A stretch of 64,000 bases of DNA from Ignavibacteria bacterium (GCA_026417135.1 JAOADV010000001.1:124001-188000), one strand, 5' to 3'. Counted from the stretch's first letter, positions 10,359-33,280 are shown. Numbers and translations: made by a program. Notes: generated by a model from the sequence alone, not told the origin.

Positions 10359-10422
10359 TGCTTTTTTCTTTATTTTTGAATTTTTATTTTCTTTCTAATT
10401 TGCTCACTTTTTGGGGGGAATA

Positions 10423-13400
10423 GTGTTTAGATTAATTTCCTTCTTTGCTCTTTATCTGCTTTTTATACCCTTATCTTCTAAGACTCAATTAATTAATTTA
10501 GATTTTTACAATAAAGAAAACGGCTCATTTATTGAATTTCTATGTTTGGACTCATCTTCGAATATCAATTTGAACTTAAAAAAGGAACATTTTCGTATCC
10601 TCGAAAATCACATCAAAATCACAAAGTTTAATTTTGTTCCACCCAAACCAATATCCGACAGCCTTTCTTCGGTAATTTTCCTTTTCGACCTATCTATTGG
10701 AAACTTAGACCAAACCAAACACAAATTGGAGTTAGTCAAACAGCTTCTGACAAGCATCGTTAGAAATCTTAGAAATACAGAAATTGCTCTAATCGCATTC
10801 GACAACCAAAACTTTTTACTTTCTGATTTTACATCCGAAAAAGGCAAAATAATTTCTCAAATAAATAAAATAACAACCACCAAATCTGCTTCTAATTTCG
10901 ACACTGCTTTTCTTGGGAATTATCTTGGCGCCATAGATTATAGTAAGAAAGCAAGATATCCAACCTCGATTGTTTTAATCACAGACAAAAATAGACAAAT
11001 AAGCCTTCCCAAAATCGAAAACCTTACGAAAAATAACAATCTCAAGGTATATGTTCTTTCACTAAGCAAGTATCTTTCGCAAGAATTAACCGATTTGTCT
11101 CGAAAAACCAACGGATTTACCTTTAACGTAAGTTCGGTAAAAGATAGCGTTAAAATAGCACAGTCCCTTAACTTTTTAACCCATAATGGAAAGCCAGCTA
11201 ATTTAAGCTGGGAGAACTTACCACTTTGTTTTAAGGAAAGACTCGCTAATATTATCTATAAAGATTTCGACACTATTTCAATCAATTTTAATGTAGAAAA
11301 TATAAACTATCCTCAAATAGTCGCAAAACCACCATTCCTTCGATATAGCTCGGTCATTCCATCACATTACAAAGACTTAGACCTTTATCTAATTGCCAAA
11401 AACTATTCAATTAAAATTGATAGTATAAAGTTAAAAAATCCGAATTTCAGTATTGTTTCCGGTGATATAAAAGCACCTCTTATACTGCAAAAAGATTCAG
11501 CCCATAAATTGACTATCAGATTTACCCCAAGCGATTCAGCAATTGTTTTCGACAGTTTGATCATTTACTCCGATGCTTGTTCAATAAAGAAAGTCAACTT
11601 AACTGGTGGATTCCCAAATAAGAAACCAAAGGAAAAAACTTTGACAATCATTTCTCCTAAATGCGAAGACCACTTCATCATTGGAGATACTGTAAAAATA
11701 AAATGGGAAGGGTTATTGCCCGCTGATGTTGTACAACTACAATACACTACAAATAATGGAACAAGTTGGGATACTCTTGCTGTAAATGTTCTTGGATTAG
11801 AATATTCGTGGTGGCTCGACCCCTCGAAATTTTCTGAAAGCGACTCTTGCTGGATTCGCATCATTCAAATTTGGCCGAATAATGCTGGCGAAACAATAGA
11901 ACTAAGACATCCCAGCTCGGTTAATTCAGCCAACTTTAACCGAGACGCTTCGCTAATCGTTACCTCGTCATATTCTTCAAATGGGTTTGCTAATGTATGG
12001 AATCCCGGTACGGGTGGAAAAATATTCTCTCTGCAAGGACATACACGAAATGTAAATTGGGCTTCGTTCGACAATCAAGACCGATACATAATAACTGCTT
12101 CCGACGATTCGACCGCAATCCTTTGGGATGTTAAAAACGGGGACTCCCTTTTTACATTCGTTGGCCACAACGGAAAAGTAACTTCCGCAAATTTCAGCCC
12201 CGACGGAAACTATGCTGTTACTTCGGGAACCGACGGTAAGAGCATCGTTTGGGATCTAAGAACCAAGAAATTAATATACACCTTGCCCATCGACCAAAAT
12301 CCAATTTACTTCGCCTCGTTTACTCCCGATTCTTTATTCATTGCCTACGCTTCATACGATGGAAATATTTACCTATTCGACATCTCTAAGCTCAAAGTAA
12401 CTAAAATTTTTCAAACAAATTTCAGTAATAACAGAATTAACCATTTCTCAATCCATTTAGGAGCAAAAAAACTTGCTGCAGCTTCCCATTTAGGCTTATT
12501 TTTTGTTTGGAATTACAATTTAGAAGACACAGCAAAAAAAGTAGACCCTTTATACCTACGCTCACACGACTCAATAAGTTTTCCAGCCATTAACACTTGT
12601 TATTTTAATTCTACAGGAAACTGGTTAATTACTGCTGGAAGCGACTTCCGTGTACTTCGATGGAACCCACAAACAGGCGAATTGATTGACTCAATCGCGA
12701 TTGGCGAGCATAATAATGCTATTACCTCCGCTTTATTTAGTTTCGACGACGCTATGTTGTTGACTTCAAGTTGGGATAGTACTGTTAAAATATTTAATCG
12801 AACAAAATTAGGACTACAAATTGACACAAACGATTGTGCTTTTTCTATTCTGCAATCGAAGTTGGCATCTTACAATGTTGATTTTGGTCGTCTTCCGTTA
12901 GGTAAATCTTTCGACACCCTTGTTAGCCCTGTAATTGTAAATAACTCTCGAATCCCTATTAAGTTCCAAAATATAGAAATCATTGGGGTTCACTCCAATG
13001 ATTTTAAAATTTTAGATGTAGGAGAAAATCTTGTTCTTAACCCAAATGATAGTTTAAAAATACTTTTCAACTTTACGCCAACGGACACTGGCGAAAGAGT
13101 AGCAAAAATTCTCCTCAAACACAAAGGTGGAAACGAAGAAATCAATTTGAAAGGATATAGTTACCTACCTTCTTTAGTGGTACACCCAAAAATCATAGAT
13201 ATGGGCATCGTTGAAGTTGGAGAGTATAAGGATACTTTATTAGCATTCGTAATCAAAAATATGAGTATTAAACCAGTAGTTATTTCATCTATTAGAAATA
13301 TCGGACCGGATTCGCTATATTTTACGATAATCAGTGGCAAAATTTCCGAACTTCTACCTCCAAATGGAACTATATCAATGACAATTCGCTTTACGCCAGA

Positions 13401-14178
13401 TACAGTAGGCCGAAAAAATTCCATTATTTTGATTGAAAACAATACCGAAGTCCCACTGGAATTTATTCAAGTTCTTGCAGAAGGAATATACCCCGTTTTC
13501 GACTCGCTCACAATTTTTACTGAAAATCATAAAGGGAAACCCGGTGATATTATTGAAATACCGATAAAAACAAAAAACAAAAAATTCCAACATCCTTACT
13601 CGTTTTATGAAGGAATCGCATTCGACCTAACTTTTAACAAAACCTTACTTGAGCCAATCGAAAATGATTTTGAATCCATTTTCGATGGAAATTATAGAAC
13701 TTTGAAAGTTTTCGCCCGCTCTAATATTTTGAAAGACTCTACGCTTATAAAATTAAAATTCAAAGTTGGATTAGGTAACGACACGATAACTACTCTGCAA
13801 ATATCTAATAGTTATCCGTTAGGAAGTGGAAAGATTGTTTTAAAAGAAGAATCCAGTATTTTTAAACTTGAGAATGTATGTCTTGAAGGAGGTGTTCGTT
13901 TATTCGAGCCTGACGGTCTAATATGGTTGGGCGAACCCAACCCAAACCCAAATACTGGTAACTTTTTTGTAGATTTCGAAACAATTGAAAGAGGTCCGAC
14001 CAAAATTCTGCTTTATGATTACAAAGGTGAACTATTGGGAACAATCTTAGAAAAAAATCTTTCCCCAGGAAGATACCGATATGAATTCACTTTCCGTAAT
14101 CTTTCCGAAGGAATTTATTTCCTTTCACTTCAAACCCCTACTCAAAAATTATTTAAAACAATAATAATAATAAAATGA
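10423..14178 (+). CDS. Secreted VWA / WD40-repeat / beta-sandwich protein with T9SS sorting domain
   Basis: About 1251 residues. I prefer GTG 10423 because a GGGGGGA ribosome-binding site sits just upstream and the product opens with a clean signal peptide (FRLISFFALYLLFIPLSS); TTG 10411 would add four residues. A VWA-like domain lies at about 60-250 (IFLFDLSIGN at the metal site, LITD later), with an imperfect DxSxS motif. A beta-sandwich of the choice-of-anchor type follows (306-396), then an Ig-like segment (405-490). A WD40 propeller of roughly seven blades spans 495-796 (GHTRNVNW, ILWDVKNG, GHNGKVTSANFSPDG). Two more anchor-type sandwiches (810-1020), a cohesin-like segment (1025-1143) and a type A sorting domain (EPNPNPNTGNFFV to the end) complete it. 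It is translationally coupled to the next gene by ATGA. The binding target is unknown. Confidence 0.8.
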   Translation: MFRLISFFALYLLFIPLSSKTQLINLDFYNKENGSFIEFLCLDSSSNINLNLKKEHFRILENHIKITKFNFVPPKPISDSLSSVIFLFDLSIGNLDQTKHKLELVKQLLTSIVRNLRNTEIALIAFDNQNFLLSDFTSEKGKIISQINKITTTKSASNFDTAFLGNYLGAIDYSKKARYPTSIVLITDKNRQISLPKIENLTKNNNLKVYVLSLSKYLSQELTDLSRKTNGFTFNVSSVKDSVKIAQSLNFLTHNGKPANLSWENLPLCFKERLANIIYKDFDTISINFNVENINYPQIVAKPPFLRYSSVIPSHYKDLDLYLIAKNYSIKIDSIKLKNPNFSIVSGDIKAPLILQKDSAHKLTIRFTPSDSAIVFDSLIIYSDACSIKKVNLTGGFPNKKPKEKTLTIISPKCEDHFIIGDTVKIKWEGLLPADVVQLQYTTNNGTSWDTLAVNVLGLEYSWWLDPSKFSESDSCWIRIIQIWPNNAGETIELRHPSSVNSANFNRDASLIVTSSYSSNGFANVWNPGTGGKIFSLQGHTRNVNWASFDNQDRYIITASDDSTAILWDVKNGDSLFTFVGHNGKVTSANFSPDGNYAVTSGTDGKSIVWDLRTKKLIYTLPIDQNPIYFASFTPDSLFIAYASYDGNIYLFDISKLKVTKIFQTNFSNNRINHFSIHLGAKKLAAASHLGLFFVWNYNLEDTAKKVDPLYLRSHDSISFPAINTCYFNSTGNWLITAGSDFRVLRWNPQTGELIDSIAIGEHNNAITSALFSFDDAMLLTSSWDSTVKIFNRTKLGLQIDTNDCAFSILQSKLASYNVDFGRLPLGKSFDTLVSPVIVNNSRIPIKFQNIEIIGVHSNDFKILDVGENLVLNPNDSLKILFNFTPTDTGERVAKILLKHKGGNEEINLKGYSYLPSLVVHPKIIDMGIVEVGEYKDTLLAFVIKNMSIKPVVISSIRNIGPDSLYFTIISGKISELLPPNGTISMTIRFTPDTVGRKNSIILIENNTEVPLEFIQVLAEGIYPVFDSLTIFTENHKGKPGDIIEIPIKTKNKKFQHPYSFYEGIAFDLTFNKTLLEPIENDFESIFDGNYRTLKVFARSNILKDSTLIKLKFKVGLGNDTITTLQISNSYPLGSGKIVLKEESSIFKLENVCLEGGVRLFEPDGLIWLGEPNPNPNTGNFFVDFETIERGPTKILLYDYKGELLGTILEKNLSPGRYRYEFTFRNLSEGIYFLSLQTPTQKLFKTIIIIK

Positions 14179-15410
14179 GATATTTTATTGTTATCTTAAT
14201 TTTCTTTTTCAACATACATCCGGAATTATCCTCTCAAAATTTATTTAATTCTGCAAGTAAGCATAATTCGAATATATGTGAACCGCACAATTTTAAACTA
14301 AATTATATAATCGAAGTCCCCAAGTTGAATTTCTTTGAGAAAAACTTTACTAATATTTTTAGTGAATTCAAAGAATCTTCCATATTACTTTTCGACGATT
14401 TTTTCAATTCAACACAAAGCATCGAACCAATACGATTTTATTATGTTCAAGTTGGCTCGTCCAGAACAAAAGGATTTTACATAGAAAATATCGGGAATGT
14501 TTCGTACACAATAAATAGAATATATTACCAAAATGGAGGTAAAGGGGTATTTAATTATATTTCTAATCCCCCAACCCCTGTTACTATAATTCCAAAACAA
14601 GCCATCTATGTATCTTTAATTTTCCAGCCCAATAAAGTTGGCTCTTTTTTCGACACCTTAATTATGGAATTTACCGAGCCGTTTAATTTTAACTACTTCG
14701 TCCCCGTCGAAGGGGTTTCCGAATTAAAAATCAAAATAGAAATACCCGACACCAACGGAATTGTCGGAACCGATAACTTTTCGGTTCCTATATATCTCGT
14801 CGGGGATTCAAACTTAGTCGAACCAGCTACTGCTAATATTTCGTTTTCAATAACCACAAATGCAAAAGTTTTTTTAATCAAAAGCATATCAAATGCAAAA
14901 ATTCTCTCAAGCTCAATAATGAATTCTTATATTACTTACAATATATTTATTGACAATTTGACCATAGATTCGAGGTCAAAACCAATCTGCTATCTTATTG
15001 GCAGAATACATCTTTCCGAAGAAGACACTACCCAACTAACAATCTCTAACTTTTCTGTCGATAATCCAGCTATTATGATTTCATCAAAAAATGGAACTTT
15101 AGAATTGCTTGGTTTTTGTGCCTCGGATTTATCGATAATTAATTTAGATGAAAACTTCGTGAACTTTTATATCGAATCTAACCCCGTAAAAGAAATTATT
15201 AAAATACGAACAGAAACAACAGAGAAAAACAAAAAACAAACTGCACAAATTTATCTTACAAACATTCTCGGAGAGATAATTTACTCGAATATGCATAGCA
15301 TCGAAAATTTAGTTGAAATACCAATCCCGCAAATTAGTTCTGGTATATACCAATTAGTCATAGTTCGGGAAACACAAAAATATTCTTACTTATTAAGAGT
15401 CCTTAAATGA
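14175..15410 (+). CDS. T9SS-secreted protein, anchor-type and cohesin-like domains
   Basis: A 411-residue protein. Residues 1-22 form a signal peptide ending near HPELSSQ. A choice-of-anchor-type sandwich lies at about 80-180 (FYIENIGNVSYTINRIYY), where the FYVxNxG pattern resembles the ASPM/SPD-2/HYDIN family. A cohesin-like beta domain lies at about 182-310 (KIEIPDTNGIVGTDNFSVPI). The C-terminal 80 residues carry a type A sorting pattern (ILGEIIYSN, then SSGIYQLVIVRE) that would direct it through the T9SS. Its ATG lies inside the stop of the VWA/WD40 gene, so the two are very probably made together and may act as partners. No enzymatic motif is visible. Confidence 0.72.
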   Translation: MRYFIVILIFFFNIHPELSSQNLFNSASKHNSNICEPHNFKLNYIIEVPKLNFFEKNFTNIFSEFKESSILLFDDFFNSTQSIEPIRFYYVQVGSSRTKGFYIENIGNVSYTINRIYYQNGGKGVFNYISNPPTPVTIIPKQAIYVSLIFQPNKVGSFFDTLIMEFTEPFNFNYFVPVEGVSELKIKIEIPDTNGIVGTDNFSVPIYLVGDSNLVEPATANISFSITTNAKVFLIKSISNAKILSSSIMNSYITYNIFIDNLTIDSRSKPICYLIGRIHLSEEDTTQLTISNFSVDNPAIMISSKNGTLELLGFCASDLSIINLDENFVNFYIESNPVKEIIKIRTETTEKNKKQTAQIYLTNILGEIIYSNMHSIENLVEIPIPQISSGIYQLVIVRETQKYSYLLRVLK

Positions 15411-15427: not shown

Positions 15428-16693
15428 ATGATTTCATCGATAAGAGGAACGAAAGACATTTTACCAGAAGAAATTCCCGTTTGGCACTTTGTAGAAAAAA
15501 AACTTCACGAAGTTTCTAACCTTTTTGGTTTTAGTGAAATCCGACTACCCATCTTCGAGAAAACAGAAGTTTTTTCGCGTACAATTGGTGCAGATACCGA
15601 CTTAGTAAACAAGGAAATGTATACGTTTTTCGATAAAGGCGGCGATTCTATAACTTTAAGGCCCGAAATGACAGCATCTGTTGTTAGAGCTGTAATTCAA
15701 AATAATCTATTGCAACAAAGTTCGATTCTCCGCATATGGTATCTTGGTCCATTATTTCGCTATGAACGACCCCAAAAAGGTCGATTACGCCAATTCCACC
15801 AATATGGAGCAGAATTAATTGGAACCAACGAACCAGAAGCTGACGCAGAAATTATTTTACTTGCCAAAGAAATTTTTGATAAGCTTGGTATTAATGATTA
15901 CAATATTATCATCAACACTTTGGGTAACACTTTTTCCCGAATGCGATATAAGGAAATCCTCGTAGAATACCTTCGAAATCACATTGCCAAACTTTCGCCC
16001 GAAAGTCAAGTGCGTTTCGGGAAAAACCCATTAAGAATTCTTGATTCAAAAGACCCGAGAGATTTAGAGATAGTCTCTGAATGTCCGCGAATACTTAACT
16101 ATTTAGATAAACCCAGCCTTGAACACTATGAAAAAACAAAAAAAATTCTTGAAAAAAATGGAATAACTTTCATAGAAAATCCCTTCTTGGTTCGTGGATT
16201 AGACTATTATTCGCATACTGTTTTTGAATTTCAAAGCCCTTATTTGGGAGCTCAAAACTCCTTTGGCGGCGGTGGAAGATACAATGAACTTTTTGAGCAA
16301 TTCAATTATCCGAAGCAAGTCCCCGCGATAGGTTTTGCTCTTGGAATTGAAAGGATAATCATTATCCTTGAAGAACAAGGTCTAAAACTTGATAATTACT
16401 ATCCAACAGCCTATGTTGCAACGACTAAACCAGAATACTTAGATATGGTTGTCGAAATCACTCAACTGCTTCGAAAGAATAATATTTCGGCAATTTATGA
16501 ATTACAGAAACGCTCGCTTAAAGCTCAACTTAAAGAAGCAAATAGGCAAAAAGTGCTTTTTACTATAATAATTGGGGACGAAGAATACCAAAATGGCTTC
16601 GTTACGTTGAAAAATATGAAAGATGGTACGCAAAGAACATTAACTCTAAACGACACTTTAACTTACATTCAAAATTATCAAGGACAAATATAA
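15428..16693 (+). CDS. hisS: Histidyl-tRNA synthetase
   Basis: A 421-residue class II aminoacyl-tRNA synthetase charging tRNA-His. It opens with the family pattern IRGTKDILPEE. Motif 2 is near 110 (FRYERPQKGRLRQFHQYG), the histidine-A loop near 256 (RGLDYYSHTVFEF) and motif 3 near 300 (ALGIERI). The C-terminal anticodon-binding domain is present and length is normal. The gene begins 17 bases after the T9SS protein gene and its TAA overlaps the start ATG of the histidine kinase by one base. Confidence 0.96.
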   Translation: MISSIRGTKDILPEEIPVWHFVEKKLHEVSNLFGFSEIRLPIFEKTEVFSRTIGADTDLVNKEMYTFFDKGGDSITLRPEMTASVVRAVIQNNLLQQSSILRIWYLGPLFRYERPQKGRLRQFHQYGAELIGTNEPEADAEIILLAKEIFDKLGINDYNIIINTLGNTFSRMRYKEILVEYLRNHIAKLSPESQVRFGKNPLRILDSKDPRDLEIVSECPRILNYLDKPSLEHYEKTKKILEKNGITFIENPFLVRGLDYYSHTVFEFQSPYLGAQNSFGGGGRYNELFEQFNYPKQVPAIGFALGIERIIIILEEQGLKLDNYYPTAYVATTKPEYLDMVVEITQLLRKNNISAIYELQKRSLKAQLKEANRQKVLFTIIIGDEEYQNGFVTLKNMKDGTQRTLTLNDTLTYIQNYQGQI

Positions 16694-19746: not shown

Positions 19747-21123
19747 TTATTTGAATGAAATTCTAGAATACTTTACTCCTACATAATGACCATAATAGTT
19801 CAAGACAAAGAAAACAAAAGCAAGATTCATCCATAGTAGAAAGTAAACAAGAATGTTTGCGGTAAAACTGCAACGAAAAATTTCGTAAGCAATTATGTAT
19901 GGTGCAATCCCTATCAACTTTCTTTCTTGTAAAGACAACGAAATATCGTCGCGAACTCGGCGATACAGCTTTAAAGAAGCAAAGAATAATGAAAACATCA
20001 TAGCATTGAACAGCAGAAAATTAAATATACCGGCTTCGGCAAGAATGGACAAAGAAGTGGTATCGCTAAAAAGGTCGACAAATTCCTTTTGATAACCAAT
20101 TAACCCAAGCCCAACTCCTAACACAGGAGCAGTGGTCCAAATGTGAATCGAGGAGAGTGCATTTTTAAATCGCCCAGAAAAGCTTTCACCCCCCATTTCA
20201 TTTTCGCCTAAAGTAAGTATGTTTTCTATTCTAACTGTAAACATTTTTAAAAGGTCAAAATCAAAAACTTGGGCAACGAAAAAATTTGTAATCAAGATAG
20301 GAACAATAGCTATTAAAATAATTCTAAACAAGAATTTGTATGACTGAAAATATTCAATTAGAAAAATCACTAAAAGAACCACAAAAGCCCCGAAGATTCC
20401 AGTAAGAGAAAAGGTCAAAAACAAGGTAACTAAATTAATAATTATAAGCAATAATAAAAGCTTATTGTTTTTTACGAAACCCTCTCGAAACTGAATCCAA
20501 GGTATCATAAGAAAAATTAGAAGATAAACATTGTAGCTTGCTAAAACGGTAGGTTCGGTAAAAATTGAGGTTGCCCGAACAAATGCACCAAAAGCAAGCG
20601 AAGCTTGACTAACCCCACCAATTATATCTAACCGTGAGAAGATACCTCTATTGGAATACTCTACCCAAGCGAATGGCAAGCCGAAGGCACGAGCAAATAA
20701 CTGGTAAATACCAAATAGATTAAAAATTAGCATCAAAACAATAAACCATTTCACTACCCAAAGAAAACTTTTCGGCTCGAGATATTCTGAAAATAGAAGA
20801 AGAATAAAAGCCACAATATAATAATAATGAAAAGTGGTTTTTATATTCTGTATTATTTCAGACGATGACCCAAAAATCAGAGGACCAAGTATGGTGAAAA
20901 GCATCATAAAATTGAAAGCAAAAAACAGCATATTCGGATAATTGATAGCAATTATTAGCTTTCTGTTTAAGAGGAAAAATGAAATTAGAAGTAAAATGTA
21001 TGCAAAAATAATGTTTAAGTCGTGCGCAGTAATTCCATAATTAAAAAAATAAAAGAATGCATAACCAAATAGGAATTGGGTGAAATAGGTCAATGCAAAA
21101 GATATGTTATAAACTTTTTTCAT
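19747..21123 (-). CDS. O-antigen polymerase/ligase-like polytopic membrane protein
   Basis: A 458-residue inner-membrane protein with about ten or eleven hydrophobic spans. Near 330-345 it contains TTAPVLGVGLGLIGYQKEF, resembling the P-x-x-G-x-G-x-G segment that precedes the last helices of Wzy/WaaL (Wzy_C) proteins. Those enzymes polymerise or ligate lipid-linked glycans on the periplasmic face. A large periplasmic loop after a central run of helices is consistent. It has its own -7 box and is separated from the T9SS gene upstream by a strong terminator, so it is not part of that operon. Polymerase versus ligase cannot be decided. Confidence 0.7.
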   Translation of the reverse strand: MKKVYNISFALTYFTQFLFGYAFFYFFNYGITAHDLNIIFAYILLLISFFLLNRKLIIAINYPNMLFFAFNFMMLFTILGPLIFGSSSEIIQNIKTTFHYYYIVAFILLLFSEYLEPKSFLWVVKWFIVLMLIFNLFGIYQLFARAFGLPFAWVEYSNRGIFSRLDIIGGVSQASLAFGAFVRATSIFTEPTVLASYNVYLLIFLMIPWIQFREGFVKNNKLLLLLIIINLVTLFLTFSLTGIFGAFVVLLVIFLIEYFQSYKFLFRIILIAIVPILITNFFVAQVFDFDLLKMFTVRIENILTLGENEMGGESFSGRFKNALSSIHIWTTAPVLGVGLGLIGYQKEFVDLFSDTTSLSILAEAGIFNFLLFNAMMFSLFFASLKLYRRVRDDISLSLQERKLIGIAPYIIAYEIFRCSFTANILVYFLLWMNLAFVFFVLNYYGHYVGVKYSRISFK

Positions 21124-21220: not shown

Positions 21221-23761
21221 TCAATAAACCGTTACTTTTACATTCCAAACTTTTTGACCGATTATTAAGTTAATGAAATACAACCCAGAATTTAGGTTCT
21301 CGAGGTCAAGAACAGTTGTTTTTTCTCCATTAATAGGTTTCAAAGTAATTGTCCGCCCAAGAATGTCGGTTAAAGCAATTTTACCCGATTCTACATTTTC
21401 TCCAAAATGTATAGTTAATAATTGCCCCACACGTGAAATCGAAAAGGGTGGCTCTTCGATTCCTTCAACTTCAAGAAACTCAGATTCAAGAGCAAAAGCC
21501 ATATCGATATTAAAATTGCTTACATAATCACTGTAAAACGATTCTACGTAGTCTTTAAATCCAAATTTAGTGGCATATAAGACCATTCTCGTTGGTGGAA
21601 GTTCGTCTATTACAAACTTACCGGAAGCGTCTGTTAAAGAATAATTCAAAAAATCACCGTTGACGTCGGTAACGTAGACTAAAACTTCCGATAGTGGGTC
21701 ACCATAGTCACATTGAGGTTGATTATTAGACTTAAATAAATTAACTCCAGTATAAACTTTCCCAGCGACTTGAACTAAACCACGGAAACCAGTGCGAGTT
21801 CGATGTTTAATTTCATAGACAATTGTTATCATATTGTCGTTAACGGAAATCCTTGTAGCTTCACGCCATTTCAACGTGGCAAAATCGCCCATTTTATAAT
21901 ATCCGGGAACGTAGGCTTTATCCTTTGGAACAGATAAAAGAACATATTCACCGTAGGGTAAATTCTTAAAAATAAACAAGCCTTCTGCATCTGTTTCGAC
22001 AACTTGTGAATGATAAGGTTTAAAGTATTTTGAATTTGGGGAAGGTTTAGTCATTAATGCAAATACAAACGATTCGATTGGATTTCTATCTTTATCCATC
22101 ACAATGCCAGTAATTGAATTTGTGCGTCTTTCGGGCGACTTCAAGTAAAAATTGATGTTTTCTAAATCTTTTTTAAGCTCCAAAATGTCGGCTTGATACG
22201 GTGAACTAACCTCTTTGTAATATTGGTCCAAATAATTCTCTTTATCCAAGGGAATTGCGTGTGCAATGTAGGTAAAATTGTTTGTTAAGGGTATGGAATA
22301 GAAACCATTCTGGTCTGTTTTGGCAATATTTTTGGAAATTACACCATATTTATCTTTATTCTCTTTGTTGTAAAAAAGTTCAAGTGGAATAAATTCAACA
22401 ATTGCCATCACTGGAGTATTATCAATTGCCGAAAGAACATATCCAGATACATTAAAAACTTCGGGCTCGGGTAGTTTACGAACGACCATTTGGATTTCGC
22501 AAACTTGGACTGTAGTATCTTCACAAACAAATTTCAAACGAGTAGCATCGATAGGTCGAGTTCCGTTCGTATAGAACATTCGCTCGAATTTTTCGCCATA
22601 GAACTCCATAATGTATGTTCCTTCGGGTAAGTAGAAATCAAATTGTCCATTCTTGATATATGTCTTAAAATAAACATTCGTTTGCTTGTCGTTAATGTCG
22701 AGCTTCCAAGCAACTGCAACTCCATTTTCCACTGGTGTATCATCATCGAAAACTGCTGTACCTTTGATGTGAACACAATATTTCATAGGTTGGGGATTAT
22801 CAACTACTCCAATGCAGATTCTTTGCAAAGCTCGAACATTTGTATCGCAAGTCAAAATGGCTTCGACAATTCCTGCAAATTGACCTTTTTCTTTGGGTAA
22901 CCAATAAACGGTACTCTCATCTGGTTTGAATATGGCTCCATCCATATTTATCGATTGAAATCGAATTTCTACTGGACACCTTATGTTAGATTCAGTAACA
23001 ACTCGATAAATCCAAGGAACTCCGACCATTGCAGTGGTTGGGGGTTGACTAACAATTCTGACGAATGGTTTATTACTATGGGTATCGGGTCGAACCACGT
23101 GAATTCTAAACGTCTGGATGGCTGGTTCAACATTTATTTTACACGATGTACCAGCTTTGATAGAAACCTCGTAAATACCTTCGGAAGTAGGAATCCACTC
23201 GAGCAAGCCCTTGTTTGATATTTTCATACCTTCGGGACGTGTGTTGGATAACTCAAAAATATCGACAGGGCAATTAATATTAGTTTGCACATAAACTTGA
23301 TAAACATATTTGACCCCAACGTAAGCAAAAACTGGTGGTTGCGAAACAATTCGAATAAATAACTTTTGATTTGTCAAGTCAATTCGAACAATATTGCTCG
23401 GTTTACTCTCTAAAACTTTCCCATCTGGATGAGTAATATACGATGTTACATAAAATTCATATACTCCGGGCAAAACATTTGGTATGGTGTAATGATATTC
23501 GTATTTGCCTTGAATTGCCTTTAAAATTCCTACAATTGAAGTTTTTGATGTCCCAAAATGAATAGTTTTCTGATAAATGTTAAAACCTTTTGGAAAAGTA
23601 CCTTGATTATCGATGTTCCAAGTTAAATTAACTTGGTAAGAACCATTCAACTCTGTGCAAGTTATATTCAAATTATGCGGTGGGTTGAGCGTTTGAGCGT
23701 AAGCACCCAAACCAAGTAAAAAAACTGCTAAAACTGACAAAGAAACAAGGAATTTTTTCAT
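21221..23761 (-). CDS. T9SS-secreted protein with Fn3-like, Ig-like and carboxypeptidase-regulatory-like domains
   Basis: An 846-residue surface or secreted protein. Residues 1-22 are a signal peptide (ending GLGAYAQ). A fibronectin-III-like domain lies at about 24-128 (NPPHNLNITC). Two tandem Ig-like repeats follow (about 133-230 and 235-325), each opening with RIVSQPP and containing a conserved INCPV/IRCPV segment. Four or so carboxypeptidase-regulatory-like beta-sandwiches occupy 330-750, recognised by repeats such as GKFVIDELPPTRMVLYATKFG. The last 80 residues are a type A sorting domain (DILGRTITLKP, NSGLYFINLIIG). It is the last gene of the ECF sigma operon and the likely cargo or effector of that unit. 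There is no catalytic motif, so a structural or adhesive role is plausible. Confidence 0.8.
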   Translation of the reverse strand: MKKFLVSLSVLAVFLLGLGAYAQTLNPPHNLNITCTELNGSYQVNLTWNIDNQGTFPKGFNIYQKTIHFGTSKTSIVGILKAIQGKYEYHYTIPNVLPGVYEFYVTSYITHPDGKVLESKPSNIVRIDLTNQKLFIRIVSQPPVFAYVGVKYVYQVYVQTNINCPVDIFELSNTRPEGMKISNKGLLEWIPTSEGIYEVSIKAGTSCKINVEPAIQTFRIHVVRPDTHSNKPFVRIVSQPPTTAMVGVPWIYRVVTESNIRCPVEIRFQSINMDGAIFKPDESTVYWLPKEKGQFAGIVEAILTCDTNVRALQRICIGVVDNPQPMKYCVHIKGTAVFDDDTPVENGVAVAWKLDINDKQTNVYFKTYIKNGQFDFYLPEGTYIMEFYGEKFERMFYTNGTRPIDATRLKFVCEDTTVQVCEIQMVVRKLPEPEVFNVSGYVLSAIDNTPVMAIVEFIPLELFYNKENKDKYGVISKNIAKTDQNGFYSIPLTNNFTYIAHAIPLDKENYLDQYYKEVSSPYQADILELKKDLENINFYLKSPERRTNSITGIVMDKDRNPIESFVFALMTKPSPNSKYFKPYHSQVVETDAEGLFIFKNLPYGEYVLLSVPKDKAYVPGYYKMGDFATLKWREATRISVNDNMITIVYEIKHRTRTGFRGLVQVAGKVYTGVNLFKSNNQPQCDYGDPLSEVLVYVTDVNGDFLNYSLTDASGKFVIDELPPTRMVLYATKFGFKDYVESFYSDYVSNFNIDMAFALESEFLEVEGIEEPPFSISRVGQLLTIHFGENVESGKIALTDILGRTITLKPINGEKTTVLDLENLNSGLYFINLIIGQKVWNVKVTVY

Positions 23762-26474: not shown

Positions 26475-27599
26475 GTGAAAAAAATTAAGATAATCTCGGT
26501 AGTTGGCGCCCGACCAAATTTTATGAAGGTTGCCCCTCTCGAGCGGGAATTTGCAAAACTTCCTCATATCTTCGAGCATTTAATATGCCACACAGGTCAA
26601 CATTATGACTACGAGATGTCACAATCCTTTTTCGACGATTTGGGACTTTCCAAACCAAGCTTCTACTTGGGTGCTGGTTCTGGTTCACACGGAGAACAAA
26701 CGGGCAAAATATTGATAGAATTTGAAAAGGTTTGTCAAACAGCCAAACCCGACCTTGTTATCGTTGTTGGAGATGTTAATTCAACTATTGCTGCAACTTT
26801 GGTCGCAGTAAAAATGGGAATTAAAACAGCACATATAGAGGCGGGACTTAGAAGTTTCGATAGAACAATGCCCGAAGAAATTAACAGAATCGCCACCGAT
26901 TCAATCTGCGACTATTTCTTCGTAACAGAAGAAAGTGGCGTCAAAAACCTTCTTCGCGAAGGACGAAGTCCCGAAAAAATATTCTTTGTAGGCAACACAA
27001 TGATTGATTCATTAATTGGTATTTTACCTAAAATTGACAAAAGCAAAATACTTGAAAATTTAAATATTAGCCCTAAGACTTTTGCTTTGATGACTTTGCA
27101 TCGTCCGAGTAATGTCGATTCCAAAAAACAACTTTCCAAAATCGTGGAAATTATAAGATTTATAGCAGAGAAAATTACAATAGTATTTCCAATACATCCA
27201 CGAACAAAAAAAAATCTCGAAAAACTTAGCTTACTGTCCGAACTTGAAGAAATCCCAAACTTAATACAAACGGAACCACTGGGCTACATCGACTTTATCA
27301 AGCTAATGAAAAATTCACGCTTTGTTATCACAGACTCGGGTGGCATCCAAGAAGAGACCACTTTTTTACAAATACCTTGTCTAACTTTAAGAACTACAAC
27401 AGAGCGACCAATAACAACCGAAATTGGCACGAACAGATTAGTTCCGCCCGTTAAAGAAAAAATAATCGAAGCAATTATTGAAACATTAAACCAACCAAAT
27501 GTAGAATCTGCAATTCCACCTTTATGGGATGGAAAAACAGCAGAGCGAATCGTTAATATTATAGCAAATGTAATTTTTAAAAATAGGATAAATAAATGA
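26475..27599 (+). CDS. wecB: UDP-N-acetylglucosamine 2-epimerase (non-hydrolysing)
   Basis: A 374-residue enzyme making UDP-ManNAc from UDP-GlcNAc for surface polysaccharides. Family motifs are GARPNFMKVAPLEREF near the N-terminus, HIEAGLRSFDRTMPEEINR near 117-135 and TDSGGIQEE near 287. It starts with GTG at 26475; no ATG is better placed. It overlaps galE by ATGA, so the two are translated together. They probably supply precursors for the same glycan as the nearby Wzy/WaaL-like protein. Confidence 0.94.
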   Translation: MKKIKIISVVGARPNFMKVAPLEREFAKLPHIFEHLICHTGQHYDYEMSQSFFDDLGLSKPSFYLGAGSGSHGEQTGKILIEFEKVCQTAKPDLVIVVGDVNSTIAATLVAVKMGIKTAHIEAGLRSFDRTMPEEINRIATDSICDYFFVTEESGVKNLLREGRSPEKIFFVGNTMIDSLIGILPKIDKSKILENLNISPKTFALMTLHRPSNVDSKKQLSKIVEIIRFIAEKITIVFPIHPRTKKNLEKLSLLSELEEIPNLIQTEPLGYIDFIKLMKNSRFVITDSGGIQEETTFLQIPCLTLRTTTERPITTEIGTNRLVPPVKEKIIEAIIETLNQPNVESAIPPLWDGKTAERIVNIIANVIFKNRINK

Positions 27600-28795: not shown

Positions 28796-31700
28796 TTATT
28801 TGACGTAAATCATCTTCTTAGTATAACGCTTACCTTCTACTTGTAAAGTGTAGAAATAAACACCCGGAACAAGATTCAAATCTTCGGCACTAATATTAAT
28901 CGTATTCAATCCAGAAGTGAATTCCCCTTTTAAAATTGCGATAAGTTCACCATAAGGATTTGTAATCTTTATTTCTCCAATCATAGACTCCGGCAATGTA
29001 AATTCTATTTTTGTATGCGAATCAAAGGGATTCGGAACGTTCTGAAATAGCTCAATATTGAAATCTTGTACTTCCTTCTTTAGAATTGTTTTCATCGTTA
29101 CAGTAACTTGGCATTCATTGCTCCAAACTTCACCACATTGATTATAAACTTTCACCTTGTAAGTACCAGCGTCTTCGGCTCTGGCACTCGAAATTTCCAA
29201 GATACTTGTAACATAAGGAAGTTCGGTATCGTTTTTATACCATAAATAGCTCAAATTATCACCAGAAGCAACGATTTCGAGCCTAATTGGTTTTCCAGTT
29301 TCAACATTTAACGAAGTTGGAAGTCCTTTTTCTATCTTTGGAGGTGCATAAACAACTAAATTAGCTCCGTTGGAAATAACCTCGTCGAAACCGGGGATTC
29401 TAATCACACAATCATATCTTCCTCCATCGGAAAATTCGAGATTGCTTATGGTTAAAGTCGCTGTGTTTGTCCCTTGATATTTATTATTATCTGTGATTGG
29501 AGTGCCATTGAAACGCCATTGGTAAACTAAATTGTATCCGGGAACTGTTGATGTAGCTGTAATTGAAATAGAAGTCGTGGCACCTTTACAAGCTTCTAAA
29601 TCATTCAATAGAGTGAATACTACTTTGGGTTTTTCGGCAAGTGTTATTGGCTTAGAGGTATCGGCTCCACACAAGCCGCGAACTATGACATAATAATTTG
29701 TTGCATAGTCAATGTGTTTTACATCCTTTATAGTCAAAATCGAAGAGTTCGAGCCAGCAATTCGGTCGTTATCTCGTAATGGAGTATTACCTCGGTACCA
29801 TTGTATCATTGGTTCACCAACTTCTTCTTTCTCCTCTGGTGTGATATGCATATCGATTTGGAAGGTTGCAACTTCCCCGGGAAGTAAATAAGTAGTTGTT
29901 GGCTGACGAGTTATTTTTGTTGGCATCAAAGCATACAACAAAGCATCCTTGGAACGAACTGGTTCGGCTTCGCCAGTACCAGAAACGAGGCAGTAATAAA
30001 TTCCTGCCATATCGTGCCTTAAAGTGGGAAGCATCAGTATTGGCTGAGTAGCTCCAACAACTGGTTGGCCATTAAAATACCATTGGAATGAAAGCTCACC
30101 GCCAAAATCGATTTCGGCAAGTACCGATAGAAAGTGTCCATTGTGACCCACGCAACCAACAACTTTTTTGGGCTGTTCAAGAATGCGAATCTCGGGATTA
30201 AGTGTGTTTACACCCATATAAAAGGCTTTATAACGCCGTGTTCCATCAATATCAGCGTTTTCTACCTCGTCTTGCCAAACTGTTCCCATCAATTCGGGTA
30301 AAGGATATCTCAAATATAGGCGACCATCAATTTTGTTTATTCTTGGATTATCGTCAGAAATAAATTGAGGAACAACAGACGATGAATTCATATCTCTGCC
30401 AGTAGCCGAACGCCAAGCTGCAAGAGTAGCTCCAAGGTTAGAAAGGGATGTGCCACTTGTGTAAAGATTGTTCTCATCCATAATTAAATCGGTGGGAATT
30501 GTACCCGAAACCTGAACCGCAAAGCCCGTTCCTTTATTAAAGAAAATATTTCTTTTGAAAATATTGGTTGTTCTTAAAGTTGAGAATAAAGCTGTAGGAC
30601 CAGATGTATTCGAAAACAGCGTATTATAAAGCAACATCGTCCCAGATAGGTTATTCAATTGCAAAGCACTTGCATTTAATGTGGTAATAAGATTATTAGC
30701 AATTAGGCTGGGTGAATTGATAATAAACAATCCATATTTGTTGTTGCCGCTTAATTTAACATAGTTTCGATAGAACTTAATACTACGACTACCACTTGCA
30801 TATATACCGTGTGTGTTAGTACCAAAAATGCTATTTTTAGAAACAAACGAACCAGCTTGATAATTTGTAAATTCAAAGCCAGAATTGATTAAAACGATTC
30901 CGGACTTATCGAAAGTCCCAGTAGTACTTAAGGTTATGCTATTATTCACAATATTAAATGCATTCACCCCACTTAAATAAATTCCATTTGAATTCGTCGT
31001 CATTACTACATTATCCTCGACATTAGCCCCTTCAAATCCAGTTGTAGTATGAATTACACAGATACCACCCATATTGTCTGTCAACGAAGTTGAAGTCGAT
31101 GGACCAACACCATTTACCCTATTCCCACGAATTAACGAGCCATTTTGAACGAAAATCCCATTAATTAAATTTGTTCCAGAGACACTATTATTGGTAACTA
31201 AACAGCCTTGGACGTCTTCAATTCGGATACCTTGCCAATTTTGCCCAACAAAAATATTATTATCGATGCTAAAAGTTTGGGATAATTGACCAGAAGGCGA
31301 CTTGTGCCATATACCAACGGAGCCATTACGGAAGGTAGAATTCATAATGTTAAGTCCAAGGACTCTATTGTTATCGGAAAATAACAATGCAAAGTCAGTT
31401 GTCTTTGCGGGATTTAAACAACCAATTAACTCGCAGTTGTCGAGAGTTATATTCGAATTACCGCCTCGTAAAACAAGAACACGACCAAAGGTGCAGCTGT
31501 TATTTCTCAAAGTTACATTTCTGAAAATAACATCATTGTATCGATTAATTTCAATAACAAAATTTCCAGCGGCAGAAGTTGGGGAAGCACTAATGATAAC
31601 ATCTTCTTTTCTTCCAGTTTGGGATTCAAAAGTAAGTGGATACTGCCTTACACCGACTGGACTTAAACTGAAGTTAGCGGAGTATGTTCCCGGTCTTATA

Positions 31701-33049
31701 AGTAAAGTAACAGGACCGGCCATTCCCCAGTAACCAACAAAGCTTACAAAATCAATTAAATTAGCGAAGTCTGGTTCTCTTCCGCCAACTGTATAAATTC
31801 CGGGAGCAAGTGCTTTATAAACTTGTGTAGATAAAGTGTCGTTCGCTGTATTTTCATCTGGATAACCATTCGGATAGGAAGTCCAAGCAACTATTGGGAC
31901 TGGAATATTAGCGGTCCCAAAGTCGTATGCTCCGACGGTAACATCTATTGAATCTCTCGAAGCCAAATTTCCGGTCCAATAATATGGGGTTTGGAACTGA
32001 CCGTAGACGCTCCAATTAATATAAACCGAGTTCAAAGGTCTCGGAGCATAATTGTAAATTCTTAACCTAACTGGATTTATTCCTGGGTTAAGTGGAAGCA
32101 TTGGAGCAGCACTAATCACACCAGCATCGTGAAGAATACAAGGAATATTTTTTGAGTAGCTATCATTAGTTGGGTCGGTGTCGGGCTGAGCATTTGCAGC
32201 GGCATCAGGACCTCTCGGATTAGATGTCCAGGCTCTTATAGTGAAGGGATTCCAAGGAGGTTGTGGATTGAAACGGAATCCAGAATGAATCTCGACAACT
32301 GTTGTTGCACCCGTGTCGAGATAACCAGACCAATTGAACGGGGTTTGCGAAACCCCATCAACCGACCAATTAATTGTAACACTTGTCAATGGGAAATATT
32401 TCCCGAAATTTTTCAGAACAACGCGAACAGGTTGGTTCTGGTAGGAATTAAACTTGCTTTGTGGACTTACAATGTCCGCTATTCCAGCGTCGTTACCACG
32501 AGCACCAATTACAATTGTATAATCTTCCCATTCCATATAGTAATACGAATAGCAAGCACCGTAGTAAACAAGAGGTTGTGCGTAATAATGGTGTCCAGTA
32601 TAAGCTACTCTCATCCTCGTTTCACCCAATCGAGCATTGGAAGGAATACGAATAGTTCCAGTATATGTCTTCGTCCAACTTCCGCCGTATCTTGCCCTAC
32701 AAGATTCCCACTTATAGGCTACCAATTCATCGGTATTGTTAAAGGAGCGGTCTTGATTCCAGTCTATCCAGATTACATAACCAGTACAATTCCACCAAGA
32801 ATATCCGTCAACAGTAAAAGAATATGATTGACCCGGCAAGCAAGGGTTGGACCTAACAGATGTAAAATCGCTATAACCAGAAGAAGCATAAGTGCTTCGG
32901 TTATTAATTCCATTGAAAACGAACTGGGTCATATAACCACCTTGGGGGTAGTAACCCGTTACACTGCAGTATTGTGCAAACGAATCGATAGTTGTAAGAA
33001 AAGCAAAAACAATTGCAAATGAGGAAAATATCGTAGCAAAGCGTCTCAT
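28796..33049 (-). CDS. T9SS-secreted protein: GEVED, CARDB-like, beta-helix and Ig-like domains
   Basis: About 1417 residues. I choose ATG 33049 because GGAG lies eight bases upstream and the product opens with a basic n-region and hydrophobic core (RRFATIFSSFAIVFAFL); an ATG at 33076 would add nine residues. After the signal peptide there is a GEVED domain (about 25-180, VIWIDWNQDRSFNNTDE). Two CARDB-like sandwiches follow (185-400, each with a tINWSVdG/INWSVYG strand). A right-handed parallel beta-helix spans about 420-840 (many short N-rich turns such as NNSVSGTNLINGIFV). Four Ig-like domains run from about 965 to 1330 (FQWYFNGQPVVG, YQWRFNGTPI). The type A sorting domain ends the protein (FQNVPNPFDSHTKIEF). 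It is probably a surface adhesin or polysaccharide-binding protein; no enzyme residues are evident. Confidence 0.83.
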   Translation of the reverse strand: MRRFATIFSSFAIVFAFLTTIDSFAQYCSVTGYYPQGGYMTQFVFNGINNRSTYASSGYSDFTSVRSNPCLPGQSYSFTVDGYSWWNCTGYVIWIDWNQDRSFNNTDELVAYKWESCRARYGGSWTKTYTGTIRIPSNARLGETRMRVAYTGHHYYAQPLVYYGACYSYYYMEWEDYTIVIGARGNDAGIADIVSPQSKFNSYQNQPVRVVLKNFGKYFPLTSVTINWSVDGVSQTPFNWSGYLDTGATTVVEIHSGFRFNPQPPWNPFTIRAWTSNPRGPDAAANAQPDTDPTNDSYSKNIPCILHDAGVISAAPMLPLNPGINPVRLRIYNYAPRPLNSVYINWSVYGQFQTPYYWTGNLASRDSIDVTVGAYDFGTANIPVPIVAWTSYPNGYPDENTANDTLSTQVYKALAPGIYTVGGREPDFANLIDFVSFVGYWGMAGPVTLLIRPGTYSANFSLSPVGVRQYPLTFESQTGRKEDVIISASPTSAAGNFVIEINRYNDVIFRNVTLRNNSCTFGRVLVLRGGNSNITLDNCELIGCLNPAKTTDFALLFSDNNRVLGLNIMNSTFRNGSVGIWHKSPSGQLSQTFSIDNNIFVGQNWQGIRIEDVQGCLVTNNSVSGTNLINGIFVQNGSLIRGNRVNGVGPSTSTSLTDNMGGICVIHTTTGFEGANVEDNVVMTTNSNGIYLSGVNAFNIVNNSITLSTTGTFDKSGIVLINSGFEFTNYQAGSFVSKNSIFGTNTHGIYASGSRSIKFYRNYVKLSGNNKYGLFIINSPSLIANNLITTLNASALQLNNLSGTMLLYNTLFSNTSGPTALFSTLRTTNIFKRNIFFNKGTGFAVQVSGTIPTDLIMDENNLYTSGTSLSNLGATLAAWRSATGRDMNSSSVVPQFISDDNPRINKIDGRLYLRYPLPELMGTVWQDEVENADIDGTRRYKAFYMGVNTLNPEIRILEQPKKVVGCVGHNGHFLSVLAEIDFGGELSFQWYFNGQPVVGATQPILMLPTLRHDMAGIYYCLVSGTGEAEPVRSKDALLYALMPTKITRQPTTTYLLPGEVATFQIDMHITPEEKEEVGEPMIQWYRGNTPLRDNDRIAGSNSSILTIKDVKHIDYATNYYVIVRGLCGADTSKPITLAEKPKVVFTLLNDLEACKGATTSISITATSTVPGYNLVYQWRFNGTPITDNNKYQGTNTATLTISNLEFSDGGRYDCVIRIPGFDEVISNGANLVVYAPPKIEKGLPTSLNVETGKPIRLEIVASGDNLSYLWYKNDTELPYVTSILEISSARAEDAGTYKVKVYNQCGEVWSNECQVTVTMKTILKKEVQDFNIELFQNVPNPFDSHTKIEFTLPESMIGEIKITNPYGELIAILKGEFTSGLNTINISAEDLNLVPGVYFYTLQVEGKRYTKKMIYVK

Positions 33050-33280
33050 TTTTATTTCTCCAAAGTTCAACATCAAAATTTATTTTCTTAACAAAATATT
33101 TAACTAATTGTTACAATATTTTAATTAAACCTCCTTAGGCATTATAAAAGTAAGGAAAAAAGTAAAAATAAATTGTAAAGCATTTCAAAGGTTTCGATGT
33201 AAATTATTTTTGAATTATATTGTAGTAATTTTTTTTACATTGTAAAGAAAAACTTTTTTCAGTTCATTCAAATATTTACT

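Follow-up and report, generated by a model that had tools for sequence, protein, structure and literature searches.

At positions 10423 to 15410 of the 64-kb stretch of DNA analysed here (hereafter, the window), two overlapping genes on the plus strand encode the T9SS proteins P1 and P2. In our reading, to which we assign a probability of roughly 0.55, P1 is a binding or scaffold protein that is anchored to the cell surface, has no enzymatic activity and performs a function common to a whole bacterial family, and P2 is its accessory. The first part of this reading is based on the domains and sorting signals of P1, the occurrence of a T9SS translocon gene in the same genome, the modelled propeller and the lack of matches to any catalytic family. 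A family-wide, vertically inherited function is proposed because orthologs occur across the family, are syntenic with hisS, diverge in step with HisS and are retained more often than a comparator protein. P2 is considered an accessory because it is homologous to the C-terminal third of P1 and its gene overlaps that of P1 at an ATGA sequence in all five genus members.

Modular organization of P1

The reading frames of P1 (10423-14178, 1251 aa) and P2 (14175-15410, 411 aa) were confirmed at the coordinates given in an earlier note on this DNA. Two start codons are available for P1, a GTG at 10423 and a TTG at 10411, the latter defining a longer ORF. The GTG is preferred because the sequence GGGGGG, which resembles a ribosome-binding site, is found just 5' of it, and the TTG start would lie in GGGGGG. 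Pfam and NCBIfam matches, together with an AlphaFold2 model and the orthologs described below, define P1 as a T9SS-sorted protein with the organization VWA-ASH-Ig-WD40-ASH-ASH-cohesin-CTD. The parts of P1 and P2 given below, as well as hisS and sprA, are located on the plus strand. The protein begins with a signal-peptide-like N-terminus (MFRLISFFALYLLFIPLSSKT; 10423-10482), and hydrophobic N-terminal leaders can also be read in the sequences of P2 and of the P1 orthologs.

The leader is followed by a VWA-like domain (aa 84-250, 10672-11172), which matches PF13519 (VWA_2) at 33.8 bits, above the curated cut-off of 27; a phmmer search of the PDB with this part of P1 returned nothing below E 0.1. 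The metal motif of this domain had been described as imperfect, and the MIDAS sequence of P1 is indeed DLSIG in place of DxSxS. The DxSxS motif is found in only two of the 31 P1 orthologs (L104 and L105) and is degenerate in the other 29. This loss counts against metal-dependent adhesion, and weakens to that extent the adhesive role suggested in the earlier note.

Downstream of the VWA-like domain are ASH1, a sandwich of the choice-of-anchor-D type delineated from ortholog conservation and the strands of the model (aa 301-400, 11323-11622), an Ig-like domain (aa 401-488, 11623-11886) and a WD40 propeller (aa 487-794, 11881-12804), which matches PF00400 at 109.9 bits (cut-off 27). ASH2 and ASH3 (aa 815-1015, 12865-13467) match NF012200 at 60.1 bits (cut-off 45) and PF22073 at 38.3 bits. 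The cohesin-fold domain that follows (about aa 1020-1158, 13480-13896) scores 25.4 bits against PF00963 when searched together with its neighbours in the frame (genome search; cut-off 24.1) and 23.2 bits as an isolated fragment, and a profile of the C-terminal third of P1 matches Hydin and cellulosomal cohesins of the PDB by sequence. P1 ends with a T9SS type A C-terminal sorting domain (aa 1174-1249, 13942-14169), recognized by PF18962 (Por_Secre_tail; 35.9 bits, cut-off 27). The TIGR04183 model (cut-off 23) scores 28.4 bits for P1 and 23.0 bits for P2 in the genome search, and 22.1 and 19.4 bits, respectively, with hmmscan. The earlier description of a protein combining VWA-like, sandwich, cohesin-like and sorting domains is thus supported.

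P1 is probably non-enzymatic, since neither P1 nor P2 matches a catalytic family in Pfam or NCBIfam. Six conserved cysteines of P1, at positions 269, 386, 414, 476, 805 and 1153, are compatible with an oxidising compartment. T9SS surface proteins are a known kind of protein, among which P1 is an unusual, new domain combination. A literature search found no paper describing a bacterial WD40 protein of this kind outside the cell, and the words secretion, signal peptide and VWA are absent from the text of a survey of prokaryotic WD40 proteins.

The AlphaFold2 model of P1, which covers aa 22-1200 and was obtained with 31 orthologs, has a mean pLDDT of 85 and a pTM of 0.57, values which indicate that the single domains are confident and that their relative arrangement is not. 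In this model, the propeller is made of seven closed blades, each of four strands, so that the stable, seven-bladed WD40 fold anticipated from the sequence is recovered by structure prediction. Residues 487-794 superpose on the seven-bladed designer propeller 7big (Z 42.5, rmsd 1.6 A, 285 residues) and on the WD40 domain of PkwA from Thermomonospora curvata (5yzv; Z 42.3, rmsd 1.6 over 290 residues). PkwA carries, like P1, a bacterial seven-bladed WD40 propeller, but is part of a predicted serine/threonine kinase and is not T9SS-sorted. Foldseek matches of the full P1 model are dominated by the propeller. As judged by the strand order in the model and by the alignment range, blade 7 appears to be closed by an N-terminal 'velcro' strand that immediately precedes blade 1.

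Conservation is uneven along P1. Mean pairwise identity among the 31 orthologs reaches 57% in blade 7, 54% in the Ig-like domain, 49% in blade 1 and 44% in ASH1, the four best conserved parts, and is among the lowest in blades 3 to 5 (25-28%) and in the VWA domain (26%). Because identity peaks in the Ig-like domain and in blades 7 and 1, the region of propeller closure and junction, we read the Ig-propeller junction as fixed and the rest of the disc as more variable.

Distribution and inheritance of P1

A scan of genome contigs with the single P1 sequence found no relative; an alignment-based scan identified 39 loci. The relatives that bear a name are Candidatus Kapaibacterium or Kapabacteria, along with related metagenome bins, and the source of the window is a Candidatus Kapaibacterium-type bacterium (Bacteroidota). 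P1 is matched at E < 1e-95 in 32 of the 35 other genomes of the family, and the orthologs are 27-57% identical. Of the three others, G005 has its P1 broken up by contig ends, and G008 and G012, both nearly complete, carry only P1 paralogs.

P1, or the P1-P2 unit, is located immediately 5' of hisS (15428-16693 in the window) in 19 of 27 orthologous loci. The divergence of P1 is correlated with that of HisS (Mantel r 0.58, a value reached by 0 of 2000 permutations), as expected for vertical descent. When at least 90% of the protein length has to be covered, P1 is present in 15 of 21 family genomes, and a comparator T9SS protein, encoded at 21221-23761 of the window, in 7 of the same 21; this comparison involves one comparator, and three more P1 copies are cut by contig ends or affected by low completeness. 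Judging from these sequence comparisons, P1 is old and family-wide, and is retained more strongly than this single comparator T9SS protein. One ortholog (L115, JAGXRP010000033.1), flanked by hisS and HK, belongs to a record labelled Desulfobulbaceae, apparently a metagenome bin that is either mixed or wrongly labelled.

Related proteins with VWA, ASH, Ig and propeller modules are spread across the order, often in multiple copies. Paralogs with a VWA-ASH-(propeller)-ASH-CTD organization were identified in the same order (L092, L094 and L095) and in the genome carrying P1 (L096, L097 and L098). These proteins feature the same module set as P1, and some have WD40 propellers; in contrast to P1, they map to other genomic places, are mostly 22-28% identical to P1, and some lack the propeller. 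For instance, L096 (2339-5911, G000:C44) encodes a VWA-ASH-cohesin paralog of 1191 aa that has no propeller and a cohesin domain above the Pfam cut-off.

For many T9SS substrates of deep-branching Bacteroidota no role has been assigned, and P1, kept in place family-wide, is one of them. Because the whole family keeps in one place a protein with a closed propeller that is expected to be extracellular, P1 is a good candidate for a general surface function, more so than for that of a niche adhesin. Its retention in nearly all relatives, usually beside the same gene, suggests a standing job at the cell surface.

The overlapping partner P2 and the cohesin domains

The P2 gene starts inside the stop codon of P1, as the earlier note had reported, at a four-base ATGA stop/start overlap (14175-14178) that is also found in four genus relatives. 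The protein is composed of a signal-like leader, an ASH domain, a cohesin-fold domain (14718-15119) and a T9SS sorting domain (15180-15383). The latter matches PF18962 at 28.5 bits, over the curated cut-off of 27, and ASH-type models remain below their cut-offs. In the AlphaFold2 model (pLDDT 79), the first domain resembles HYDIN/PapD-like domains (2e6j, Z 9.2, rmsd 2.3 over 101 residues), the second is structurally closest to cohesins (6kgc, Z 13.2, rmsd 2.2 over 120 residues), and the last is similar to the C-terminal part of PorU (6za2, Z 9.5, rmsd 2.4 over 86 residues). BLASTP comparison of P1 and P2 gave no significant match, but profile comparison does reveal that P2 is homologous to the C-terminal third of P1 (hhalign probability 99.0%, E 3.8e-18, 314 columns). 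This homology and the sorting domain agree with the previous description of the partner as a smaller T9SS protein with the same sandwich types.

Each of the other four genus members has P2 beside P1, 39-44% identical and with the ATGA overlap preserved. P2 is also present in one other genus, 25% identical and without the overlap; downstream of P1 in other family genomes, where readable, either hisS or an unrelated gene is found. Since it is restricted to this genus and one other, P2 looks like a later addition, i.e., a recent, largely genus-specific accessory related to the P1-type C-terminal module. The coupling of the two genes, which the earlier note had taken as the possible basis of a surface complex, thus holds in five of five genus members but does not extend to most of the family, where P2 is not beside P1. 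P1 would therefore function without P2 in general, and the pair is not obligatory. Neither of the two outcomes that the earlier note had listed as refuting, absence of the pair in relatives or a prediction of no stable WD40 fold, was observed. The overlap supports co-expression of P1 and P2, not their contact. Short gene overlaps also occur elsewhere in the window, for instance at 27596/27599 and between hisS and HK at 16693, and the ATGA overlap alone is consequently no argument for a P1-P2 complex. Cooperation between two T9SS surface proteins has a precedent in the trypsin-binding pair of Paraprevotella (PMC9477747).

P1 and P2 contain one cohesin domain each. These domains share the fold of cellulosomal cohesins (6kgc, 3ul4; Z about 13 for P2), but differ in being single domains within T9SS proteins. 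A Pfam dockerin search of the genome carrying P1 gave no match. When the dockerin protein of a relative was used as query, an ortholog with 51% identity was found in this genome (G000:C6:5650-7011), and orthologs were also found in most family genomes, which indicates that the earlier zero was a false negative of the Pfam model. The protein is T9SS-type and has two calcium-loop motifs, with an insertion between them; its score for Dockerin_1 is 13.8 bits (cut-off 22.9). It is the only dockerin protein found, and belongs to no known enzyme family. Neither multi-cohesin scaffoldins nor dockerin-bearing enzymes were seen in a search that can miss diverged dockerins. Of the cellulosome-like assembly envisaged in the earlier note, the cohesin folds are real, but the assembly itself is unsupported, given the single cohesin per protein and the results of the scaffoldin and dockerin searches. 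A cohesin-dockerin contact at the surface is possible; P1 and the dockerin protein do not strictly co-occur, as the dockerin copy was not detected in G004, which has both P1 and P2, and was found in two genomes devoid of P1, G008 and G012. At two loci, L157 (2633-4036, G000:C6) and L149 (864-2219), a T9SS-type protein was observed which combines an N-terminal part that appears cohesin-like by eye with a type I dockerin featuring a conserved insertion between its two calcium loops. This protein is kept across the family and the order, and escapes the Pfam dockerin model in the genome carrying P1.

Export route and candidate functions

About 73 matches to T9SS sorting domains are above cut-off in the genome carrying P1. 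The sprA gene, encoding the T9SS outer-membrane translocon, maps to the same window as P1 and P2 (54854-61621; TIGR04189, 737 bits, cut-off 200), and provides the export route expected for both proteins. Elsewhere in the window, a T9SS-sorted protein of 1426 aa with parallel beta-helix-like and Ig-like stretches is encoded at 28796-33076, and the product of 19747-21123, which matches an O-antigen ligase (Wzy_C) just under the cut-off, is possibly part of surface polysaccharide synthesis.

According to our preferred reading, P1 would be exported in two steps, first via Sec and then via the T9SS with its SprA translocon, and would be held at the cell surface, probably by exchange of the sorting domain for a lipopolysaccharide anchor. 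The ASH, Ig-like and cohesin-fold domains would serve as a stalk and as contact modules. Linked to the conserved Ig-like domain, the propeller may act as a ligand-binding disc, and the degenerate VWA domain as an additional, metal-independent contact module. This surface function would be common to the family and inherited vertically. P2, encoded by the next, overlapping frame, would be a younger accessory that follows the same export route and probably sits beside P1. A more ambitious version would make P1 a new T9SS surface organiser found throughout the Kapaibacterial lineage, with the propeller binding one shared partner (either the LPS-anchoring machinery or, via the cohesin, the conserved dockerin protein) and with P2 as a second docking site in one genus; this version is speculative and quite unlikely to be correct.

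Other roles can be envisaged for these proteins. P1, with P2, could be an adhesin for other cells or surfaces, in which the VWA domain and the propeller would mediate binding; T9SS-sorted proteins that are long and built of many domains, VWA and sandwiches among them, fit such a role, and related proteins form a large order-wide set. We consider this unlikely, as the MIDAS is degenerate in nearly all orthologs and as P1 is a single gene fixed in place across the family, unlike the fast-changing repertoires of adhesins. A role as accessory factor of the T9SS itself, i.e., an exported propeller helping to process or anchor other cargo, is suggested by PorZ, which is essential in P. gingivalis, reaches the surface through the T9SS and combines seven-bladed propellers with a C-terminal sorting domain (PMC5121618, PMC8545088). 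The retention of P1 in 32 of 35 family genomes, above that of the comparator cargo, would suit this role. PorZ, which delivers A-LPS to PorU, differs however from P1 in having two propellers before the CTD, and no VWA, ASH, Ig or cohesin domains (PMC5121618, PMC8545088), whereas P1 has one WD40 propeller. Moreover, no T9SS gene adjoins P1, and P1 is missing from the nearly complete G008 and G012 genomes. The PorZ-like role is, in our view, decidedly improbable.

We regard as very unlikely that the P1 and P2 cohesins hold the conserved dockerin-bearing T9SS protein at the surface. The cohesin folds and the conservation of a two-calcium-loop dockerin protein in the family, including this genome, favour such docking, but the sub-threshold score of the dockerin, the insertion between its loops, its imperfect co-occurrence with P1 and the negative search for many-cohesin scaffoldins and dockerin-bearing enzymes all argue against it. 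Equally little is to be expected of a structural coat similar to an S-layer subunit. Family-wide retention of P1 would be in keeping with a coat, and the S-layer protein 7ptp is among the many beta-sandwich matches of the P2 model (Z 9.1, rmsd 12 over 157 residues); yet such matches are generic for beta-sandwich chains, and nothing here points to a lattice, repeats or abundance. A binding or scaffold protein with a family-wide function remains the reading that we prefer for P1. P1 and P2 also offer a test of cohesin-dockerin pairing on Bacteroidota surfaces outside cellulosomes, and P1 is a clean test case of how exported WD40 propellers find their ligands.

The location of a WD40 propeller in a secreted protein had been highlighted as an oddity in the earlier note, since such propellers are normally cytoplasmic. 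This view does not hold here. Besides PorZ, an extracytoplasmic (periplasmic) WD40-type propeller tied to the T9SS is known in PorE/PG1058 (PMC5121618, PMC5053529), and export-type N-termini are found in all three Pfam-WD40 proteins of the genome: P1, a 334-aa protein encoded before a CRD-OmpA protein, and a 631-aa protein encoded beside an OmpA protein. WD40 domains outside the cytoplasm are thus not out of place in this lineage. PorE shares with P1 the extracytoplasmic, T9SS-linked propeller, but is a periplasmic lipoprotein with TPR, CRD and OmpA domains and no sorting domain (PMC5053529); Pfam and NCBIfam searches detected no TPR, CRD or OmpA domains in P1. The WD40 and CRD-OmpA gene pair of this genome is closer to PorE than P1 is. 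In this pair (L153, 6298-7302 and 7306-8031, G000:C8), a CarboxypepD_reg-OmpA protein is encoded after the exported-looking WD40 protein of 334 aa, and the two together look like the T9SS component PorE divided between two genes. The 631-aa WD40 protein, which has a T9SS-like tail, is encoded in a region (L152, 711-5311, G000:C20) together with a 434-aa protein without Pfam match and an OmpA-family protein, and all three are exported-looking.
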